IMG/VR virus record: IMGVR_UViG_3300021425_004367
Span: 1 to 20,450 of that record
DNA length: 20,450 nt
Origin: a virus
Reading direction: 5' to 3' (one strand)
This document shows positions 642-19,652 of the stretch, piece by piece. Under the pieces are notes generated by a model. It did no database searches and was not told the DNA's origin. It saw nothing but the letters and a program-made list of their open reading frames with translations. Positions within the stretch are counted from its first letter, which is position 1; each line of letters begins with the position of its first letter. The translations under genes and the position numbers were made by a program.

Positions 642-665
642 GTCGTAGTATGAGTCTTTAAACCC
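642..665 (-). promoter_or_regulatory. GTTTAAAG/CATACTA element upstream of the 78-620 gene
   Basis: On the minus strand the region reads GTTTAAAGACT directly followed by CATACTAC, 27-43 bases before the start codon at 620. CATACT matches the -10 consensus at four of six positions. Nearly the same string, with two extra bases inserted, occurs at 1769-1792, and a looser version at 8814-8836. Recurrence ahead of leftward units suggests a promoter or regulator site. The function is inferred. Confidence 0.4.
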
Positions 666-2567: not shown

Positions 2568-2600
2568 TTTATCAGTGTTTATGTAAATCTTTCAACCCTA

Positions 2601-8247: not shown

Positions 8248-8805
8248 TTATGTCTCGGGAATTGCGCTGACCCAAAGTAACCTTCCGATCCATTCAGCGC
8301 TTGGACCGAAAGAACTTAGTTCTATAAGGATTTTTCTTCCTTGGCCTTTGTAAAAGTCGATGGGATTAGACGCTGAAAAGTCTAGAAGATCTGCATCTCC
8401 ACCCCAAGTGATGACAGACGTTCCAAATTTCCAACTTGCTTCAACTCCCCAGTTAACAGGATAGTCAAAATACGTTGAAAAATTTAATAATGGATTTTGA
8501 GTAAATCTAAGCAAAATACGATGCTCACGATAAAATCCCGAAGGAATATCTAGTGGGTTAGTATTTGCAATTGGAAGATTATCTGGTTGGGTTACTTCTA
8601 CGTCTAAATAGTTGGAGATAAGAAGAGGGCCCATAGGACTATTTTTTACCGCGCCACCAAGTTCAATCGGTGTGCTAATGGAATCCCCGGCCCACATCCT
8701 CCCATCTGCCGTGTTAATACATACCTCGCCTTCATCGAGGTCACCAATAAATGGTTCCTCTCCTGGCAACGAGGTTGTAATGAGTTGGAGTGTTGCTTCT
8801 GCCAT
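8248..8805 (-). CDS. Fibre-associated protein with Mtd-like N-terminal domain, 185 aa
   Basis: The first 50 residues (LQLITTSLPGEEPFIGDL, then GEVCINTADGRMWAGD) match the short N-terminal module of phage receptor-binding proteins (major tropism determinant N-terminal type). In these, a string such as L-x-EGE-x-x-x-N-T-x-D-G-R-x-x-x-G-D forms a virion-attachment hairpin. The remaining 130 residues are beta-rich and unrecognised (WGVEASWKFGTSVITWGGDADLLDF). It is likely a short fibre, a fibre connector or a fibre-tip protein acting with the giant fibre that follows 17 bases later. I chose the ATG at 8805; a TTG two codons upstream (8811) is possible. No Shine-Dalgarno site is evident, and a CATACT element only nine bases upstream would give an almost leaderless mRNA. 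Confidence 0.72.
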   Translation of the reverse strand: MAEATLQLITTSLPGEEPFIGDLDEGEVCINTADGRMWAGDSISTPIELGGAVKNSPMGPLLISNYLDVEVTQPDNLPIANTNPLDIPSGFYREHRILLRFTQNPLLNFSTYFDYPVNWGVEASWKFGTSVITWGGDADLLDFSASNPIDFYKGQGRKILIELSSFGPSAEWIGRLLWVSAIPET

Positions 8806-8881
8806 CGACAATTAGTATGTCTGATAAACTTTAACCTACCCTTTGCGGTTTAAAGTAGAAATATAGCAAAGATTTTTTGTC
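8806..8881. promoter_or_regulatory. Divergent control region between leftward fibre and rightward baseplate units
   Basis: These 76 bases separate the two diverging units. They contain an imperfect dyad, ACTTTAACC (8828-8836) and GGTTTAAAGT (8847-8856), arms matching with one bulged base around a ten-base centre, so each direction has a GGTTAAAG-type box. Leftward, CATACT (8819-8814) follows it; rightward, ATATAG (8861-8866) does. Neither is a consensus -10. I infer back-to-back late promoters or an operator. Confidence 0.45.
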
Positions 8882-9931
8882 TTGAAGACAGTTTACGTTA
8901 CTGACGATTTTAGTAGTCTTGGAGGACTGGGCGCTGTTGCATATGGCGATCCGGAATATTTTCGCGAGGTACAAAATCAAGTATGGGCCGCCTCACCCAC
9001 TCGGTTTATAGATGTTCATCGCCCATCGGATGTTTTAGAGTCGCTTCTTGGCACGGAGTCAGAACTGGTAGATGGAGTATTAGAAGTATTAGAGGCAGAG
9101 TATGAAAAAGATGGCGAATTTACAGACTACGTAGATATCATCCAAGGGCAGAATTGGAAAGAAAAAGTTACCAAAAATTTTTTCCCAACCTTGGGGCAAA
9201 TTGTTGATTCTGAAAGCTCATATATTACCTCAACTTCAAGCTACTTAAACAAAACTCTAACATCCATTCTACCAGGCTTTGTTTCTTCAGAAAATTTTGT
9301 ATCTAAGATTGTGGATTGGCTCGAGGAGGCTAAAATTTCTCCCATAAATACGAACCTTGCTGGCGCAATAATTGCCAATAATCCCCAAACTAAGATTTCT
9401 TCGCCTCCAGTCAATGCCAAAATTGCCCTGAATAATAACGTGGACCTAGGACTTGATTACAGAGGAGTTGAATTTACTAAAGGATATTCTACCCTGCAGG
9501 AATACTGGAGTGATATTCCATATCCAGGAATGGAATCCCCTTCCATATTGCCAGGTTCACTTCGCCAAAGTGTCCTTCAGGGATATGTGGGGTACGCTTC
9601 TACAACCCCACTTGAGAAAGTATACAATTCTATTGCGGCAGATTCGATTGGTAGTTTGAATTTATCATCGCCCGAAGCAATCAATTACTCCGATCCATTT
9701 ACCGCTGGATCTATTCTCGGTGAGATTCCAGACTTTAAACGTCAAGATAATGATATTTATTCTATCTCTTTAATCGGAGAGGCCATTAATGGTTATACGT
9801 CTTTTGATCCCGCAACTATGTCTAACGGAGACGCCATTGATCGTTCGCTAATTCCTGATTTTGAAGGGCAAAACGCCGACTCCGACGGCGGTAGAGCTGG
9901 CCTTTCCCGTACCTTTACCTCACCATTCTGA
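8882..9931 (+). CDS. Baseplate protein with LysM-like N-terminus, 349 aa
   Basis: First gene of the rightward baseplate unit. Residues about 10-55 (LGGLGAVAYGDPEYFREVQNQ ... RPSDVLESL) resemble the LysM-like fold of phage baseplate proteins such as T4 gp53, in which L-x-x-I-A-x-x-x-YGDP-x-x-W is followed by a loop and a P-G-x-x-L/I end. The rest is unrecognised, Ser/Ile/Asn-rich, and ends in a Gly/Ser/Asp tail (GQNADSDGGRAGLSRTFTS). A TTG at 8882 is the only usable start: an in-frame TAG lies at 8864 and no ATG occurs until well into the protein. No Shine-Dalgarno site is present. The next gene, baseplate J, begins three bases after its stop. A gp53-like wedge role is plausible but not proven. 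Confidence 0.72.
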   Translation: MKTVYVTDDFSSLGGLGAVAYGDPEYFREVQNQVWAASPTRFIDVHRPSDVLESLLGTESELVDGVLEVLEAEYEKDGEFTDYVDIIQGQNWKEKVTKNFFPTLGQIVDSESSYITSTSSYLNKTLTSILPGFVSSENFVSKIVDWLEEAKISPINTNLAGAIIANNPQTKISSPPVNAKIALNNNVDLGLDYRGVEFTKGYSTLQEYWSDIPYPGMESPSILPGSLRQSVLQGYVGYASTTPLEKVYNSIAADSIGSLNLSSPEAINYSDPFTAGSILGEIPDFKRQDNDIYSISLIGEAINGYTSFDPATMSNGDAIDRSLIPDFEGQNADSDGGRAGLSRTFTSPF

Positions 9932-17900: not shown

Positions 17901-17910
17901 TGGTACAATA
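17901..17910 (+). promoter_or_regulatory. Extended -10 promoter for the thioredoxin-sigma-HNH unit
   Basis: TGGTACAATA gives a TGn extension plus TACAAT, five of six matches to the -10 consensus, with no -35 box at the correct distance. Transcription would start near 17917, some 35 bases before the ATG at 17952. It differs by a single base from the decamer at 1735-1744. Confidence 0.55.
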
Positions 17911-17951: not shown

Positions 17952-18272
17952 ATGACAGACCAACAAGAATTTAAATATAAAGCAGTTTTCTTTCACCAAC
18001 CTGGATGTATTGCTTGCAATACCATGAAGCCGGTGTGGGTGGAAACCGCAAATGAACTGGCGGAAGAATATCCGCATTATGCAATTGGTTTTGGGGATTG
18101 GGACGTAACGTCCGATGACTGGGCTTTTTGCGATCAGATTGAGTGTGATGGGACACCCAATTTTGCCATTTTTGGCGAGGACTCCGAACTTCTTGGGTTA
18201 AATACCGCTGGTATATTAGCCAAGACCCAACTCAAAGATTTTATTATTAGCTCTATTGAGCAAGGTAATTAA
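17952..18272 (+). CDS. Thioredoxin-like protein, 106 aa
   Basis: A small thiol-disulfide protein of the thioredoxin fold. A strand (AVFFHQPGC) leads to the active-site pair C19-I-A-C22, then the first helix (MKPVWVETANELAEEY). A second strand is followed by a cis-proline (GTPNFAIF, P69) and a C-terminal helix. The length is normal for a thioredoxin, but the dipeptide between the cysteines is IA rather than GP, which would shift its redox potential; that is inference. Phages use such proteins as ribonucleotide-reductase reductants, as polymerase partners or to handle cysteine-rich virion proteins, and nothing here decides which. The ATG at 17952 fits the promoter at 17901 better than an in-frame upstream codon. 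It is followed one base later by the sigma-factor gene. Confidence 0.85.
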   Translation: MTDQQEFKYKAVFFHQPGCIACNTMKPVWVETANELAEEYPHYAIGFGDWDVTSDDWAFCDQIECDGTPNFAIFGEDSELLGLNTAGILAKTQLKDFIISSIEQGN

Positions 18273-18273
18273 T

Positions 18274-19026
18274 ATGTCATCTCATGTAAATCTATCACCG
18301 GCCAGGATGAGTTGCCGAACAAGTGACCGCGATCGGCAAATTGTTTCGCAAGCGTGGAAGGCTAATCAAGTTGCACGTAAAATTAGTAGTTTTACCGGGT
18401 TGCCATATGAAGAACTTCGCGACGCTGCCCTCGAGTATATTGTTCGCATCTATGACTCATGGGACCAGAGCAAAGGCGCTAATTTTTCTACCTGGGTGAA
18501 TAGGTGTTTGCAATTTCATATGTTAAACTACCTACGCGATAATTCTCGGTTAATAAAAATTCCGCGGTCCTATTCGGATTTATATCTTAAAATTCGTAAA
18601 TACACCACCAAAGATCCAGACGTTACCGACGATCAAATTGCCGAAAAAATTCAGGTCCCCGTAAAAAAAGTCAGAGCAGTACGCCAGGCTTTTTCTATGT
18701 CATTTTCGCAAATAACAGAGTACTCCAATATCATCGAACCAAGCTACGATGCGGAATTTACCATAGGGGATTTTATGGAAAATCATCGTGGGCTATTACA
18801 CAAAATTACAAGCTTAGAAGAACCCGACGAAACGTTCCTTACTGATTACTTGGTAAAAAAACGTAGTGTTTCCACCTTATTGCGTAAAAATCCACACTTG
18901 CGTAATGCCGATGATATCAAACGCTATTCAGAGCAACTCATTGAATTTGTATTATGCGACGCATCATATCCCTCCAAGGCACCGATTATGGCAAAGGCCA
19001 GTTCGAGAAAAAATGGAGCGAAATAA
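18274..19026 (+). CDS. Sigma-70-family RNA polymerase sigma factor, 250 aa
   Basis: A phage sigma factor, likely directing host RNA polymerase to phage promoters. Region 2 is clear at about 43-97: ELRDAALEYIVRIYDSWDQ, SKGANFSTWVNRCL (the usual SKGxxFSTxA block), and YLRDNSRLIKIP, which contains the -10-recognition and melting helices. Region 3 is seen at about 112-147 (KDPDVTDDQIAEKIQVPVKKVRAVRQ). Region 4 (-35 recognition) is not recognisable: about 185-230 is helical (LVKKRSVSTLLRKNP) but lacks the LxxRERxVI / HTH pattern, so it is either very divergent or lost, as in T4 gp55. The ATG at 18274 comes one base after the thioredoxin stop, with AAGG about nine bases upstream. The 3' end overlaps the HNH gene by 73 bases. 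Confidence 0.88.
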   Translation: MSSHVNLSPARMSCRTSDRDRQIVSQAWKANQVARKISSFTGLPYEELRDAALEYIVRIYDSWDQSKGANFSTWVNRCLQFHMLNYLRDNSRLIKIPRSYSDLYLKIRKYTTKDPDVTDDQIAEKIQVPVKKVRAVRQAFSMSFSQITEYSNIIEPSYDAEFTIGDFMENHRGLLHKITSLEEPDETFLTDYLVKKRSVSTLLRKNPHLRNADDIKRYSEQLIEFVLCDASYPSKAPIMAKASSRKNGAK

Positions 19027-19652
19027 CCTCGGCGACTGAATGTAATTATTTTGTTCGTGGAGACGACGAGGCATTTCTCAATGAGGTTGTAGACCTTGTT
19101 CCTCAGTGGAAGGCCATCAAGGATCGCGGGGAAGTTCGTTATAAAATTAGAAATAAAAAGTTTCAGGGCAAGGCAGTAAGGGGCGCAGTAATGGTTACCT
19201 CTAGGTCAAAGAGCGAGATATGGTTAGGGAAGGGGAAGGTGGTGGATGCACTTTTCCCCAAGAAAGCTGAAACGCCCGTCTATGTGCAGAATAAACGTGA
19301 GGCGTTGATGGCCATGAGGCAAATCATAGATCCTCAAATTAAGGCATATCGACAAAGTGTTCTTCGCCAACTCAAAAAGAAACCACTGAGGTGCCCAGTA
19401 TCCCACGACTTTTTAAAAGCAACCGCGTTTCACATTGACCATAAATACCCATTTAAAAATTTAGTACAAGAATGGTGTAGGGATGAGCATGTGGATCTTG
19501 AAAATATCGATGTATATTGCCGTGGCACTAAATGCTATATGAGAGACACAAATTTAGCAGAATCGTGGTTCGATTTTCATATGATGAATGCGCAACTCCA
19601 GGCACTCAGCGCTAAAGAAAACCTAAAGAAAGGTTCAAAATACTATGGTTAA
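18954..19652 (+). CDS. DUF3223-type HNH-like nuclease, 232 aa
   Basis: The central-to-C-terminal half carries an HNH-like nuclease core. RQSVLRQ (133-139) is followed by CPVSHDFLKATAFHIDHKYPF with C147 and H160-I-D162-H163; then comes ENIDVYC; and the end is WFDFHMMNAQLQALSAKENL. I recall this arrangement from DUF3223 proteins, which have an FR-x-I-x-P-x-x-x-x-Y/F-R start and an HVDH core. The N-terminal 105 residues (GKGQFEKKWSEI, GDDEAFLNEVV, GKAVRGAVMV, GKGKVVDALFP) look folded but I cannot name them. The ATG at 18954 is the only start that keeps the N-terminal part, giving a 73-base overlap with the sigma gene in another frame. It may be a homing endonuclease or a packaging-associated HNH enzyme, which are common beside terminases. 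Confidence 0.75.
   Translation: MRRIISLQGTDYGKGQFEKKWSEITSATECNYFVRGDDEAFLNEVVDLVPQWKAIKDRGEVRYKIRNKKFQGKAVRGAVMVTSRSKSEIWLGKGKVVDALFPKKAETPVYVQNKREALMAMRQIIDPQIKAYRQSVLRQLKKKPLRCPVSHDFLKATAFHIDHKYPFKNLVQEWCRDEHVDLENIDVYCRGTKCYMRDTNLAESWFDFHMMNAQLQALSAKENLKKGSKYYG

Follow-up and report, generated by a model that had tools for sequence, protein, structure and literature searches.

Phage T4 gp55 is a minimal sigma factor, which reads only the -10 region of the promoter and needs co-activators. The late promoters that it serves with gp33 and gp45 are likewise of the -10-only type and carry one 8-bp element approximately 25 bp before the ATG. T4 gp33 clamps the flap tip helix in the manner of region 4, even though the two are structurally unrelated (PMC7892883). 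In coliphage phiEco32, gp36 acts at single-element middle and late promoters (tAATGTAtA) with transcription starts 6-8 bp downstream, and it has no sequence homology to region 4 (PMC8948821). Judged by this published description of its promoters and region 4, gp36 is the closest functional parallel to the sigma factor analysed here, from which it differs in the promoter element and in its E. coli host. For S-TIM5-like cyanophages, no account of late-gene activation, of the motif described below or of the function or promoter of the S-TIM5 sigma was found in the literature covered, the original description of S-TIM5 lying outside that scope; the annotation of S-TIM5 SigF says bacterial-like sigma factor and nothing more. 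The stretch of DNA analysed here (the window; 20,450 bases, an entire IMG/VR record) carries an orthologue of this protein. It is probably the late sigma of the S-TIM5 group, which would be expressed from a host-type promoter and would pass transcription on to the virion genes via the single element GTTTAAAG, with a predicted region-4-like domain that would not read a -35.

A diverged sigma-70-type factor in S-TIM5-like cyanophages

The window is syntenic with the tail and terminase region of cyanophage S-TIM5 (Aurunvirus) and is a fragment of an S-TIM5-like cyanophage. The hosts of such phages are marine Synechococcus, and S-TIM5-like relatives are frequent in IMG/VR. The sigma gene (18274..19026, + strand; ATG at 18274, stop at 19024-19026) encodes 250 aa and is the same gene as S-TIM5 SigF (YP_007006117, 67% identity) and its orthologues in S-TIM54, S-TIM61 and S-TIM66, with identities of 64-67% across this set. 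Relatives of the sigma were found in IMG/VR at 28 loci at first and then at 59, and scans with L073 and L077 for distant relatives added no further ones. Three genomes or large contigs were compared, namely S-TIM5 (172 kb), G002 (159 kb) and G001 (139 kb, 53% GC), each of which holds one Sigma70_r2 protein only.

The ORF is a genuine, strongly diverged sigma-70-type factor. Its best NCBIfam match is PRK07408 (cyanobacterial SigF, a group 3 sigma), residues 31-172 being aligned on positions 41-185 of the 258 in the model; the score is 41.5 bits against a cut-off of 261, and region 4 of the model is left unmatched. A preliminary description of this DNA had claimed a clear region 2, which is confirmed: the motifs SKGANFSTWVNRCL and SRLIKIP are both present, Pfam Sigma70_r2 matches residues 37-92 with 25.1 bits (cut-off 24; E=1.6e-5), and the same model matches 30/30 homologues. 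Delimited by Pfam, structural comparison and alignment, region 2 comprises residues 19-93 (18328..18552, + strand); it contains the near-invariant stretch KGANFSTWVNR.L.FHMLNYLRD in the homologue alignment, and VIA-align superposes it on solved sigma region 2 with a Z of 11.2. Region 3 (residues 94-140; 18553..18693, + strand), which had been claimed as well, is carried by a profile-profile alignment with SigF/FliA-type sigmas that spans residues 14-139 (E=5e-13) and ends there, and by AlphaFold2 helices at 98-113, 119-126 and 130-140, while the Sigma70_r3 HMM responds weakly (7/30 homologues, best E=0.035). As read from sequence, sigma-70 regions 2 and 3 are both present in the window sigma.

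A single promoter element before the virion genes

The 8-mer GTTTAAAG was first noticed as a repeat in the 110 bases 5' of S-TIM5 virion genes, and unsupervised counting ranks it first among the 8-mers that precede genes in all three genomes; in the T4 late region, used as a positive control, the same counting puts TATAAATA first. Copies located 10-70 bp before a same-strand ATG amount to 25/36 in S-TIM5, 25/34 in G002 and 17/24 in G001, where approximately one would be expected (binomial p of 2e-29, 2e-30 and 3e-21, respectively). Permuted 8-mers have 0.2-0.5 copies so placed on average. The upstream copies of GTTTAAAG total 67 in the three genomes, these pooled counts not being independent since orthologous promoters are common to the three genomes. 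In S-TIM5, the element precedes 17/47 virion genes versus 1/41 metabolic or host-like genes (Fisher p 1e-4), and is found before 7/124 hypothetical, 1/16 DNA-metabolism and 0/25 host-like genes. The exact box thus stands before only 36% of the virion genes, the remainder being accounted for by genes that lie inside operons or carry variants of the box.

The distance from box to ATG has a median of 26 nt (quartiles 22 and 31), and the same analysis places TATAAATA of T4 14-28 nt before the ATG. Since the start codon has to be part of the transcript, the box is too near it to be a -35, and GTTTAAAG occupies the -10 position. A preference for A/purine at +7 to +9 downstream of the box fits a transcription start site, and substitution counts mark G1 and A5 of the box as nearly untouchable. 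The -35 of sigmaB/sigmaF promoters is GTTTAA; the likeness of GTTTAAAG to it was considered, and a -35 role was rejected, as the ATG follows at approximately 26 nt and purines are favoured 7-9 nt past the box. A T4-type late element was ruled out also, as TATAAATA is not enriched in the S-TIM5 group.

In the window, only two of six exact copies of GTTTAAAG are promoter-like. The copy at 8848..8855 (+ strand) lies 26 nt 5' of the TTG start at 8882, which opens the first gene of the strand encoding baseplate, TerL, thioredoxin-like protein and sigma. Close by, the variant GGTTAAAG at 8829..8836 (- strand), which is upstream of genes in 4/26 of its copies, precedes the gene at 8248-8805. The two form a putative divergent pair that would drive the tail genes in one direction and, in the other, the genes from baseplate through terminase and thioredoxin to sigma. 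Another copy of GTTTAAAG at 656..663 (- strand) is placed 35 nt 5' of the ATG at 620, and a further variant, GTTGAAAG at 2589..2596 (- strand; upstream of genes in 7/24 copies), lies 21 nt 5' of the ATG at 2567. Just 5' of the element at 656-663, a hairpin and T run resembling a terminator (approximately 670-710, - strand) make a compact terminator-promoter junction.

Which factor reads the box is suggested by two lines of evidence: the sigma described here is the only phage sigma found in these genomes, and sigma and box are retained together in genomes ranging from 41% to 53% GC. From these we infer that the phage sigma reads GTTTAAAG. It could be argued that the tie is indirect and that SigF-type sigmas exist in the hosts, so that another factor, such as a host sigma with a phage activator, would read GTTTAAAG and the phage sigma would serve a different class of genes. 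This is improbable in view of the joint conservation, and also because genes in the stretches of T4, Syn9 and PSS2, which have other sigmas, are hardly ever preceded by the box (in PSS2, GTTTAAAG is not enriched, with 1 copy in 50 kb).

Absence of a conserved -35

The promoters defined by GTTTAAAG have no conserved -35. None of the -35 columns is significant in the 25, 25 and 17 promoters of S-TIM5, G002 and G001 when taken separately, and in the 67 pooled promoters -1 is the sole upstream column that exceeds the shuffled threshold; furthermore, no hexamer is enriched at spacers of 13-20 upstream of the box. The sensitivity of the search was calibrated with boxes implanted in shuffled flanks, TAYAAT sites being uninformative as a positive control. 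Hexamers of 0.6-0.75 fidelity implanted at fixed spacing were recovered in almost every simulated set of n=25 or n=67, and less well in sets of n=17 or when the spacing varied. The orthologous promoters in the pooled set would favour a false -35 instead of a missed one.

These results weigh on the reading of the protein as an ordinary full sigma, whose diverged region 4 would read a -35 that escapes notice through degeneracy or variable spacing. A near-threshold signal (0.14 vs 0.152) in the column 22 bp before the box would suit that reading, but this column leans towards G/T in S-TIM5 and G002 and is mixed in G001, and no column of the -35 region is significant in any of the three genomes even though implanted boxes are detected.

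A predicted region-4-like fold in the C-terminal domain

In the preliminary description, region 4 was held to be unrecognisable and approximately 65 C-terminal residues to lack its helix-turn-helix signature; an HMM search and structure prediction of this part were proposed as checks. By sequence, the first statement is correct, since neither the Pfam region 4 models (PF04545/PF08281; no match in 30 homologues, in a search that matched region 2 and only weakly region 3) nor a profile-profile comparison (hhalign) between the C-terminal part and aligned region 4 sequences gave a match. A separate region 4 protein (PF04545/PF08281) was likewise not found in S-TIM5 or the two large contigs. The structural results point the other way. 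Residues 171-229, which rank with the better conserved stretches of the protein, are strongly conserved over 30 homologues with identity down to 52%, and AlphaFold2, run with 30 sequences, predicts helices at 171-178, 183-193, 199-205 and 212-228 with the topology of region 4. When the domain (residues 164-229; 18763..18960, + strand) is folded without its sigma context, matching four helices are obtained (pLDDT 82.7, pTM 0.71), and the BFVD model of S-TIM5 SigF, an independent prediction, shows the same C-terminal fold.

Structural comparison of this predicted domain is consistent with region 4. In VIA-align, sigma region 4 fills the first 25 rows, with Z of 4.9-7.1 (a Z near 7 being modest for a helical domain); the best is BldN (Z 7.1, 59 residues, 2.7 A), DNA-bound region 4 of E. 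coli sigma-E reaches Z 6.3, and the first non-sigma rows are the HTH proteins ArdK/KorA with Z 4.6 or less. Foldseek gives weak E values (2.8 and above), with sigma region 4 dominating the list, and gp55 is absent among the structural matches, an absence that carries no information. A region-4-like fold is therefore likely at the level of prediction. A helix-turn-helix of this kind in the C-terminal part is what the preliminary description had named as refuting its reading of a missing region 4, and that reading is probably wrong.

The predicted fold has opposite consequences for two of the readings. For a minimal sigma of the gp55 type, in which region 4 would be wholly missing and phage co-activators would be required, the single-element promoters and the failure to detect region 4 by sequence are as anticipated; the confidently predicted four-helix domain with region 4 topology contradicts it, as do the length of the protein (250 aa vs 185 aa in gp55) and the failure to find homologues of gp55, gp33 and gp45, and such a sigma is hence very unlikely. 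The ordinary full sigma gains from the predicted fold, and also from the conserved D/E213 and K/R216, which in our own alignment register fall at the places of E585 and R588 of sigma-70. Its weak point is the predicted recognition helix (residues 212-228; 18907..18957, + strand), which is not basic: the net charge of residues 211-228 averages -1.3 in 30 homologues, whereas the seven bacterial sigmas used for comparison have +3 to +5 and the single phage sigma has 0. The helix and turn before it are strongly basic (+6). Along with the promoter evidence above, this leaves the full sigma an unlikely reading.

Within the preferred reading, a late sigma that reads only the -10 box, one version is offered tentatively, at somewhat short of an even chance: a complete region-4-like domain would no longer read DNA but would dock on the beta flap and so allow the polymerase to start at a single GTTTAAAG box. 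One protein would then read the -10 as gp55 does and hold the flap as gp33 does, without clamp coupling.

Genomic neighbourhood and expression of the sigma gene

The gene order terminase (TerL), thioredoxin-like protein, sigma and HNH-like protein is kept in S-TIM5 and S-TIM54. Immediately 5' of the sigma lies the thioredoxin-like gene (17952..18272, + strand; CIAC motif, Pfam Thioredoxin E=3.6e-5), a neighbour in S-TIM5 too, and at its 3' end an HNH-like gene (18954..19652, + strand), for which no Pfam family was matched and which was traced by tblastn in 20 relatives. The unit with these two neighbours described earlier holds good, as both are kept in the operon among relatives; no link of either to transcription was seen. 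The start of the HNH-like gene overlaps the sigma 3' end by 73 nt in a different frame; this overlap is kept in many relatives and may limit how far the sigma tail (residues 228-250) can vary.

The motif TGGTACAAT (17901..17909, + strand), which precedes the thioredoxin-sigma pair, corresponds to a host-type extended -10, which is present at this place in nearly all relatives, mostly as TGGTATAAT. The S-TIM5 genome has 25 TGnTATAAT extended -10 sites, 8 of which are TGGTATAAT. One TGnTATAAT site of the window (approximately 1736-1744, - strand) precedes the gene with its ATG at 1672; the copy of GTTTAAAG near it (1782-1789) is within coding DNA and is probably no promoter.

In the proposed late switch, the sigma would be expressed early or mid infection from the host-type extended -10 before the thioredoxin-sigma pair and would displace the host sigma on the host RNA polymerase. 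Its regions 2 and 3 would then read the 8-bp GTTTAAAG at the -10 position of the virion genes, A5 of the box probably being the flipped -11 base, and transcription would probably start 7-9 nt downstream of the box. The C-terminal domain would probably hold the beta flap and would have a recognition helix that no longer reads a -35. The likely circuit would run from host sigma to phage sigma, and from there to the virion genes and, via the long operon, to more sigma.

Comparison with other phage sigma factors and implications

The promoter layout resembles that of T4, and to this extent the earlier comparison with gp55 stands; the proteins themselves are another matter. Sequence homology of the window sigma to gp55 (phrog_234) was not detected, the gp33 and gp45 families (phrog_254 and phrog_223) were not found in S-TIM5 or the two large contigs by a search whose T4 control was positive, and PF02916 is absent from S-TIM5. 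As gp33 and gp45 are not found, the co-activator scheme of T4 is not transferable to the S-TIM5 group, and its single-box promoters look like a solution separate from the T4 late switch. The idea of an independent -10-only late sigma accordingly survives in its promoter part, with a single GTTTAAAG before virion genes and no conserved -35, and loses its premise of a missing region 4; for the reader of the box, the phage sigma is the candidate.

Sigma genes of other records were also noted. In cyanophage PSS2 (L098/L131, 2091-2732), the sigma gene directly follows the large terminase gene and its product has Pfam region 2 only, which makes it a possible further sigma of the single-element kind, though PSS2 yielded no clear promoter element. 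L099 (MW495066, 'Microcystis phage MaAM05') carries rpsA, ispH and fliA together with a sigma 90-94% identical to Vampirovibrio genomes, and appears to be bacterial DNA entered under a phage name.

If the sigma does keep a flap-docking domain that no longer reads DNA, phages would have a third -10-only late transcription system of independent origin, present in many aquatic cyanophage contigs. An almost invariant single element and one phage sigma make for a simple, testable model, and the late operons of the S-TIM5 group would be directly readable from sequence via GTTTAAAG. The model also raises the question of whether a sigma may retain region 4 solely for contacts with protein, which would place it halfway between full sigmas and gp55.
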